Part shown: in pieces, positions 21,132 through 22,874 of the stretch
Position numbering within the stretch: position 1 is the first letter of the stretch
Layout: every line of letters starts with the position of its first letter
Source: Methanocaldococcus sp.
Lineage (GTDB): Archaea > AGJL01 > Methanococci > Methanococcales > Methanocaldococcaceae
Direction of reading: 5' to 3'
Assembly: GCA_027068365.1 (NCBI GenBank)
Contig: JAMOTQ010000091.1
Span: forward strand, 1-35,817
DNA length: 35,817 nucleotides
Notes under the pieces: generated by a model
Databases searched by the model: none
What the model was told of the DNA's origin: nothing
Seen by the model: only the letters and a program-made list of their open reading frames with translations
Program-made: the position numbers and the translations under genes

Positions 21132-21461
21132 TTATTTTAAACTAAATAATAGTTTTATTATCTCAATAGCATTTGGATTTGTTAATATATAGAGCAATAT
21201 TAAAATTACAAATCCAACGGTCATTTTTTTGTCTAATTGGTTAAATCTATTATCAACATACCTTAATATTCGTTCTTCTGCAAGCAGTATATCTTCTTTT
21301 GTAGCCAATTCATTCTTTAGCTCGTCTTTTAACTCATGCTTAATAATTATTTTTTCTTCTTTAATAACTTCTACAACTGCATTATACAATTCTTCCGCTC
21401 TTTTTTCATCCTTAATATATTTGGCTATAATTTCATATAACTTTGCATAGGCAACTGCCAT
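21132..21461 (-). CDS. Small coiled-coil protein with C-terminal membrane helix
   Basis: 109 residues. An N-terminal helical domain (AVAYAKLYEIIAKYIKDEKR) is followed by a heptad-like coiled coil (EERILRYVDNRFNQLDKK) and a single membrane helix (TVGFVILILLYIL), then NPNAIEIIKLLFSLK. The arrangement resembles DUF1640/CCDC90-type proteins, which is a loose likeness only. The frame opens at 21488, but ATG 21461 follows a perfect GGTGAT site at 21465-21470. A close paralogue with the same leader and start lies on the other side of rio2 (22409-22799) and is split. Topology suggests an anchored oligomer; function is unknown. Confidence 0.75.
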   Translation of the reverse strand: MAVAYAKLYEIIAKYIKDEKRAEELYNAVVEVIKEEKIIIKHELKDELKNELATKEDILLAEERILRYVDNRFNQLDKKMTVGFVILILLYILTNPNAIEIIKLLFSLK

Positions 21462-21487
21462 AAAATCACCAAACTTTATCAAAACCA

Positions 21488-22300
21488 TTATTTAGTTATA
21501 TACTCAAAGATTTTATCAACATCAATCCTCTCATCCTCTTTATCAATCTTATATTTTTTAAAATACCTTACTACATTCCAAATATCTCTCTTTAAATAAA
21601 ACTCAGCGTCTGGATGATATTTAGGCACTGCCTGAGGCCAATCGATAATAACGAAATCTCCACTCTCATCTAATAGGATGTTGAACTCACTTAAATCCCC
21701 ATGTATGTAGCCAATTTCATAAGCTTTTTTAATTTCCTCAATAATTTTCCAAAACAAGTCCTTAATCTCCTCCTTACTCATAAATTCTGATAAGTCCAAT
21801 CTCTTTAACTCTTCTCCAACAACCTTACCCATAATAATGGCATGTCTATTCCACGCTATTGGCTCAGGAACTTTAACGATTGGAAATAACTCATTTAAAA
21901 TCTTAAACTCTCTCTCAGCCGTTAATCTTGAAACATACAACCAACTTATATGATGCTTGTCAGCTAAATACTCCCTGTATCTCTTCCCTCTTGTAAAGCA
22001 AGTCCTCCCATGCTTATGGAATTTTAAAACTGCCTCTCTCCCATCATTCAGTAAGACGGTATAAACGTCCCCCTCCTTACCAACCCCCAACTTATTACCT
22101 ATGGCTTTTAATATACCCTTTTTAACAAATGCATTTATTGCAAGAGCATCATAACCTCCCATTGAAACAGCATAACCATAAGTGCTTCTCACAACAAATC
22201 CAAATTTGTTCAATCTCTTTAATCTATACAACACATCCTTTTCTGGCATCTTCGCCTTTCTAACAATCTCATCCAATGGCACCCACTCGTGATGTCTCAT
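21488..22300 (-). CDS. rio2: Rio2-type atypical serine/threonine protein kinase (start uncertain, probably further upstream)
   Basis: A cytoplasmic kinase/ATPase needed for small ribosomal subunit maturation. An N-terminal winged helix (HEWVPLDEIVRKAKMPEKDV) precedes the RIO domain. The ATP loop is GVGKEGDVY, the lysine lies in AVLKFHKHG, the catalytic loop is HGDLSEFN, and the metal-binding Asp is in VIIDWPQA. From ATG 22300 it has 270 residues, but this removes the first winged-helix segment. The same frame upstream reads KKLIEALRQAQDDDFKILK, which matches the family. A GGAGGGG site ends at 22385, followed only by ATA, ATC, ATA and ATT, with no ATG, GTG or TTG back to the stop at 22409-22411. 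The true start is probably a near-cognate codon at 22373-22384. The annotated end is the minimal form. Confidence 0.9.
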   Translation of the reverse strand: MRHHEWVPLDEIVRKAKMPEKDVLYRLKRLNKFGFVVRSTYGYAVSMGGYDALAINAFVKKGILKAIGNKLGVGKEGDVYTVLLNDGREAVLKFHKHGRTCFTRGKRYREYLADKHHISWLYVSRLTAEREFKILNELFPIVKVPEPIAWNRHAIIMGKVVGEELKRLDLSEFMSKEEIKDLFWKIIEEIKKAYEIGYIHGDLSEFNILLDESGDFVIIDWPQAVPKYHPDAEFYLKRDIWNVVRYFKKYKIDKEDERIDVDKIFEYITK

Positions 22301-22384
22301 TGATATTTCTATAATTTTTAATATTTTAAAGTCATCATCTTGTGCCTGTCTTAATGCTTCAATTAGTTTTTTAATTATGATTAT

Positions 22385-22391
22385 CCCCTCC
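22385..22391 (-). promoter_or_regulatory. Strong Shine-Dalgarno upstream of rio2 with no canonical start codon after it
   Basis: Minus-strand GGAGGGG at 22391-22385 matches the 3' end of 16S rRNA well. It lies 85 bases before the first ATG of rio2 and is followed by ATA-ATC-ATA-ATT in the rio2 frame. A similar site, GGAGGGGAAAT then ATG, starts the gene at 34058. This marks the likely real translation start region of rio2. Confidence 0.6.
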
Positions 22392-22408
22392 TTATTGAAT
22401 TTTTTAAT

Positions 22409-22799
22409 TTATTTTAAACCAAATAGTAGTTTTATCAACTCAATAGCATTTGGATTTGTTAATATATAGAGTAATATCAAAATCACAAATCCAACTGTCA
22501 ATTTTTTGTCTAATTGGTTAAATCTATTATCAACATACCTTAATATTTCCTCTTTCATTGCTTTCAGTTCTCCCCTTAATCTCTCTTCCACTAACAAAAT
22601 ATCATCTTTTGTGGCTAACTCTTTCCTCAACTCATCTTTTAATTCATTTTTAATAATTATTTTTTCTTCTTTAAACATATTCTATTATCTCATTTTGTTT
22701 TATAAATTCCTCAACTGCTCTATATAACTCCTCCGCTTTTTTCTCATCCTTAACATTTTTATAAATTAACTCATATAATTTTGCATAGGCAACTGCCAT
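22409..22799 (-). pseudogene. Split paralogue of the small coiled-coil membrane protein
   Basis: From ATG 22799 (GGTGAT at 22803-22808) the frame reads MAVAYAKLYELIYKNVKDEK to KQNEIIEYV and stops at 22671. The rest of the protein is in another frame from ATG 22678: FKEEKIIIKNELKDELRKEL, then the coiled coil, the membrane helix and LFGLK, ending at 22409. Compared with the intact copy at 21132-21461 a single frameshift near 22671-22680 splits it, and the coiled coil is a little longer. The two parts overlap by eight bases, so translational coupling into two chains is a possible alternative to a dead gene. DNA identity to the other copy is high over the C-terminal 150 bases, so duplication is recent. 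Confidence 0.65.
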
Positions 22800-22874
22800 A
22801 AAATCACCAAACTTTATCAAAACCTCATAAAATCTATTTTTTGTTATTTAAATATTTTTAATATATAATTGTTT

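Follow-up and report, generated by a model that had tools for sequence, protein, structure and literature searches.

Putative AUA start codon of rio2, a gene for 30S ribosomal subunit assembly, in Methanocaldococcus

The rio2 gene of a Methanocaldococcus sp. raises the question of where, and with which codon, its translation begins, as the N-terminal part of the Rio2 protein appears to be encoded 5′ of the first ATG. The DNA analysed, referred to here as the window, is the whole of a 35,817-nucleotide stretch (contig JAMOTQ010000091.1). The rio2 frame lies on its minus strand, where it is open from position 22408 to the stop codon at 21490-21488; its 5′ border is a TAA (22411-22409), which is also the stop codon of the neighbouring ORF. 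The original prediction held that no in-frame ATG, GTG or TTG lies between the upstream stop and ATG 22300, that a strong GGAGGGG precedes the gene and that initiation occurs at a near-cognate codon, AUA, AUC or AUU. Reading of the frame gave the same result for the canonical codons and also for CTG, none of which is found between TAA 22411-22409 and ATG 22300. The GGAGGGG was located at 22391-22385, and the codons 3′ of it are ATA ATC ATA ATT AAA AAA CTA ATT GAA, with the ATA ATC ATA ATT quartet at 22384-22373 as previously placed. Judged from sequence, rio2 very probably (about 0.9) begins at a non-canonical codon. The features of the locus are as follows.

21488..22378, minus strand: rio2 coding sequence from the proposed AUA to TAA, 296 residues, with the Rio2_N winged helix and the RIO kinase domain
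22384..22391, minus strand: Shine-Dalgarno (SD) site GGAGGGGA, pairing with the 16S rRNA 3′ end GGATCACCTCC
22376..22378, minus strand: proposed rio2 start codon AUA, 5 nt from the SD register and aligned to Met1 of human RIOK2
22373..22375, minus strand: AUU, the next codon, a less likely alternative start, 8 nt from the SD
22379..22384, minus strand: AUA and AUC, within or too near the SD (spacings -1 and 2 nt), unlikely starts
22301..22375, minus strand: rio2 codons 2-26, encoding the N-terminal Rio2 helices 5′ of the first ATG, as indicated by pN/pS and predicted helices
22298..22300, minus strand: first in-frame ATG, probably an internal Met (residue 27), with an SD score of 7 (1.2 percentile)

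Extent of the rio2 coding sequence

The peptide ALRQAQDDDFKILKIIEIS is encoded 5′ of ATG 22300. The Pfam profile Rio2_N (PF09202, cut-off 27 bits) matches the extended Rio2 with 74 bits, spanning residues 11-87, versus 53 bits for the version from ATG 22300; the profile is entered at position 3 by the extended protein and at position 19 by the shorter one. The extended protein also contains the RIO1 domain (PF01163; 191 bits, E 2e-56), and in an alignment of 17 Rio2 proteins the catalytic motif HGDLSEFN is invariant and IDWPQ nearly so. The Rio2 kinases of A. fulgidus (1tqi) and human (RIOK2, 6fdm) belong to the same family and have the same winged-helix and RIO layout. Alignment of the extended protein with human RIOK2 is gapless in the N-terminal region, residue 7 falling on residue 7, so that AUA 22378 stands at the human Met1. 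These structurally characterised homologues have an annotated Met start, whereas the equivalent codon here is AUA.

Across 14 Methanocaldococcus genomes pN/pS for codons 2-25 is 0.24 in frame versus 0.94 and 1.96 in the shifted frames; for the codons just 5′ of the proposed start it is 0.76. Structure prediction (AF2, with 17 relatives) gave helices at residues 2-11 and 14-26 with pLDDT of 76-94, within a model that is moderate overall (mean pLDDT 68) and poor in the kinase part. M27 is invariant across the 17-protein alignment. Based on the profile scores, the pN/pS values and the RIOK2 alignment, the 26 residues ahead of ATG 22300 are genuine coding sequence for the first helices of the winged-helix domain, as had been proposed, and a Rio2 annotated from the first ATG therefore loses the first helices of the protein.

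Choice and conservation of the start codon

The 16S rRNA 3′ end (GGATCACCTCC) was taken from two Methanocaldococcus congeners, and SD sites were ranked with a simple ungapped pairing score devised for this analysis, on which the rio2 site scores 18 (95.5th percentile of start sites), in keeping with the predicted strength of GGAGGGG. The internal ATG 22300 is at about the 1st percentile, and none of the 14 Methanocaldococcus genomes has a good SD ahead of it. Calibration on 631 start sites that have a good SD put the ATG 4 nt from the GGAGGTGA register at 37% of them, 5 nt away at 26% and 6 nt away at 19%, and 4-6 nt accounted for 81% of the sites. The four candidate codons in the window lie at -1 nt (ATA 22384), 2 nt (ATC 22381), 5 nt (ATA 22378) and 8 nt (ATT 22375), and the first, second and fourth of these spacings are found at only 0.6%, 1.6% and 1.4% of the calibrated sites, respectively. 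As only ATA 22378 has a normal spacing, AUA 22378-22376 is favoured among the options left by the original prediction. The same ATA is picked in the window when the start is chosen from the SD only, blind to the codon, a procedure which recovers the real ATG at 71% of 692 control sites. A search for a regulatory or stable RNA structure at the rio2 start found none (z = 0.3).

The original prediction had proposed alignment of Methanocaldococcus rio2 upstream regions as a check, with ATG or GTG in relatives as the sign of a sequence error. The comparison was made over the order with 36 genomes, 14 of Methanocaldococcus and 22 of the other family (four genera). Every one of the 14 Methanocaldococcus genomes (window included) has ATA at 22378, and no ATG or GTG occupies the start position in the genus; one distant genus includes a few genomes with GTG there or beside it. 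Eleven of the 14 share the block GGAGGGGATAATC-ATA-ATT-AAA or a near version of it, and 12 of the 14 (again with the window) have no upstream canonical codon. In the remaining two (L010 and L011) the 5′ edge of the SD carries an in-frame ATG, at -5, and the SD, the spacing and the ATA are retained. A sequence error at the rio2 start is ruled out, since the block is common to congeners, ATA is kept throughout the genus and the pattern reaches the other family.

In the other family the SD-selected rio2 codon is ATA, ATC or ATT in 18 of the 22 genomes, mostly shifted by one codon relative to Methanocaldococcus. GTG is usable in four genomes of one distant genus (L037, L038, L040 and L054), and in L035 a GTG sits two codons ahead of the ATA; the GTG of the four distant genomes and the ATG at -5 in L010 and L011 indicate that a stronger codon is tolerated in places. 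Some genomes of one genus (L046-L050) have a weaker rio2 SD, and most of the family has an ATG 11 codons downstream of the start, which could yield a shorter product. Over the whole order the codon-blind choice falls on AUA, AUC or AUU (AUH) in 32 of the 36 genomes and on AUG in none; as related genomes are not independent events, this absence of AUG is read as long maintenance and not as a probability. A tree from which the start region had been left out shows at least seven changes of the rio2 start codon, none of them to ATG. The codon preceding the start varies among relatives (TTT, TTC, ACC, AGC, AAC or AAA).

In several genomes of the other family (L034, L035 and L042-L045) AT is often found ahead of the rio2 SD, giving an out-of-frame ATGGAGGTG mini-ORF, which in L042-L045 ends with TAG near the AUH start. 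Reinitiation after this mini-ORF could assist the weak codon in that family; the mini-ORF is absent in Methanocaldococcus.

The coding extent, the SD at a normal spacing, the retention of ATA in congeners and the order-wide absence of AUG together give good support to initiation at AUA 22378, which we regard as the probable rio2 start codon and at which translation in vivo would presumably begin. The near-cognate start of the original prediction is thus the sole reading in accord with the conserved upstream coding sequence, the SD spacing, the SD-less ATG 22300 and the lack of a canonical codon at the start in the genus.

Initiation at AUU 22375-22373, or at both tandem codons, is an unlikely alternative. 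The column of this AUU is AUH in 34 of the 36 genomes, and most of the other family has its SD-selected start there; tandem AUH-AUH at the rio2 start is common and present in Methanocaldococcus. The AUU is, however, 8 nt from the SD register, a spacing found at 1.4% of sites against 26% for the 5 nt of the AUA, and its residue is a hydrophobic helix position that could be kept as Ile. A start at ATG 22300, giving a protein of 270 residues with the upstream similarity untranslated, is very improbable: it is the first canonical codon in frame and its Met is conserved in nearly all relatives, but it has no good SD in the 14 genomes, strong in-frame purifying selection extends farther 5′, the winged helix would be incomplete, its first helices missing, and the strong SD would be left without a gene. 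Least probable of all is another form of recoding (readthrough of the upstream TAA, frameshifting, or mRNA splicing or editing), for although in the window and its two nearest relatives the stop of the upstream ORF is in frame with rio2 and just 5′ of it, and frameshift genes are known in the genus, most relatives lack the sequence of that ORF, there is no upstream ATG in another frame ahead of a slippery run, and in L052 and L053 a stop directly precedes ATT-ATC.

Other non-canonical starts and the possible purpose of the weak codon

Two complete congeneric genomes (G003 and G012; 1302 reciprocal ORF pairs) were surveyed for conserved proteins that start well 5′ of the first canonical codon in both. 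Once RNA genes, antisense shadows and ordinary genes had been set aside, six cases were left: rio2, hflX, two selenoprotein genes, a frameshifted chelatase-like VWA gene and a flaC-like gene that appears to need a -1 frameshift. Positive controls were provided by the selenoproteins and the known frameshift. The only non-canonical starts of the survey are rio2 and hflX, a count that is a lower bound, as a protein with only a short stretch ahead of the next ATG would go unnoticed. An SD-led scan of the two genomes for further AUH genes was noisy within genes, and near N-termini returned only hflX and rio2.

HflX is a GTPase and a ribosome factor. Of 12 Methanocaldococcus genomes (L215-L226), most have ATT or ATA as the SD-selected codon of hflX, for example GGAGGGGATAAA-ATA-AGA in G012 and GGGGGAGATAGA-ATT-AAA in L218. 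It is a weaker case than rio2, because several of the 12 genes have an in-frame ATG just before, touching or after the SD and both genomes of genus g5 have GTG at the SD-selected place. A habit common to RIO kinases was considered and rejected, as the Rio1 control genes mostly have ATG or GTG near the start of the frame.

Two of the survey genes concern frameshifting. The flaC-like archaellum gene (G003:C1:1001066-1001624, minus strand; G012 near C1:1078057, plus strand) has an SD-backed ATG in another frame and needs a -1 shift at a run of nine A (ATAAAAAAAAAGA) in both genomes, which makes it a candidate for programmed frameshifting or transcriptional slippage. In the chelatase-like VWA gene (G003:C1:122756-123680; G012 near C1:716345) a frameshift on 9-10 A, located after the ChlI-like part, leads into the frame; the magnesium chelatase frameshift has already been reported for these genera (PMC8211752).

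The closest known parallel is infC, the gene for IF3, which starts with AUU in E. coli and AUC in Streptomyces and through this start, a thoroughly studied point of control, is autoregulated (PMC5472188). As far as sequence can tell, the anatomy of the rio2 start is like that of infC, the one being archaeal and the other bacterial: an AUU/AUC-type codon in a gene acting on the small subunit, selected by the SD without a canonical alternative in the window and its congeners (12 of 14 genomes, window included) and conserved within the clade (ATA in 14/14, AUH in 32/36). The two differ in that IF3 itself discriminates between start codons, whereas Rio2 is a 30S-assembly ATPase whose feedback would have to run via 30S maturity or aIF1. 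We know of no role for Rio2 as an initiation fidelity factor or start-codon proofreader. In Streptomyces sigR a GTC start, misannotated in databases, is repressed by IF3 (PMC5472188); here too a non-canonical codon is a throttle sensed by the fidelity machinery, in a gene that differs from rio2 in its codon and in encoding a bacterial stress sigma factor. A search of the open-access literature found neither an earlier report of a non-canonical rio2 start nor an archaeal case of an AUU/AUC-type start.

Across the order AUA, AUC and AUU replace one another at the rio2 start and AUG does not appear, while the SD ahead of them is mostly strong. This pattern suggests that weak initiation has been selected for, and we infer that the codon has been kept for its throttling effect on Rio2. 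In the mechanism proposed here the 30S subunit would be positioned on the rio2 mRNA by the very strong, unstructured SD, and the initiator tRNA would pair with two of the three bases of AUA, with a mismatch at the third position, giving a 296-residue product that begins Met-Ile-Lys-Lys-Leu. The weak codon would set the rate, making initiation slow. Immature 30S subunits, or those escaping aIF1, may reject non-AUG codons poorly, so lagging 30S assembly would yield more Rio2 (and HflX in Methanocaldococcus), and sufficient mature 30S with aIF1 would yield less.

aIF1 discriminates against non-AUG codons in Sulfolobus, proofreads in Pyrococcus and destabilises non-AUG complexes (PMC6237735). In H. 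volcanii and E. coli without the 30S-maturation methyltransferase KsgA/Dim1, the proteins that increase are enriched in non-AUG starts (PMC7897474); those starts are annotated ones taken as a group, and the relevant passages do not discuss an AUA, AUC or AUU start of rio2. Together, the discrimination by aIF1 and the non-AUG bias linked to KsgA/Dim1 make a homeostatic Rio2 loop possible. That the state of 30S assembly adjusts Rio2 output through the weak start is a tentative proposal, as is the self-limiting control suggested by the original prediction. Equally speculative is a quality-sensing feedback peculiar to the Methanococcales, in which ribosome assembly state might set Rio2, and HflX in Methanocaldococcus, via the start codon alone.

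The feedback has a strong rival, to which we give about an even chance and which leaves the AUA start itself unaffected: few copies of Rio2 may be needed, and a strong SD with a poor codon may give a suitably low output without any signal being sensed. Archaeal Rio2 was non-essential in studies of Rio1 and Rio2 in H. volcanii and S. acidocaldarius (PMC7897474), so a low supply may do. The GTG in place of AUH in one subclade would be expected if only a modest rate matters, and the lack of a regulatory RNA structure at the start is in line with such a fixed throttle. A low output is, however, normally set by the promoter or by SD strength, but most genomes combine an unusually strong rio2 SD with a codon that has stayed weak through at least seven changes, none of them to AUG; furthermore, the only other such gene found, hflX, likewise encodes a ribosome factor. 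What these two readings do not cover falls to other purposes or to none. With the proposed AUA start, archaeal start-codon fidelity and 30S quality sensing become testable by a single-base change in rio2.

Neighbours of rio2

The gene 5′ of rio2 (22409-22847, minus strand) resembles a paralogue of the small coiled-coil membrane protein encoded downstream (21132-21488) and is broken into two frames (22671-22847 and 22409-22678), so that rio2 appears to be flanked by two copies of the same gene, one of them disrupted. The downstream gene probably starts not at ATG 21488, which overlaps the rio2 stop codon, but at ATG 21461-21459 (minus strand), which has GGTGA at 4 nt.
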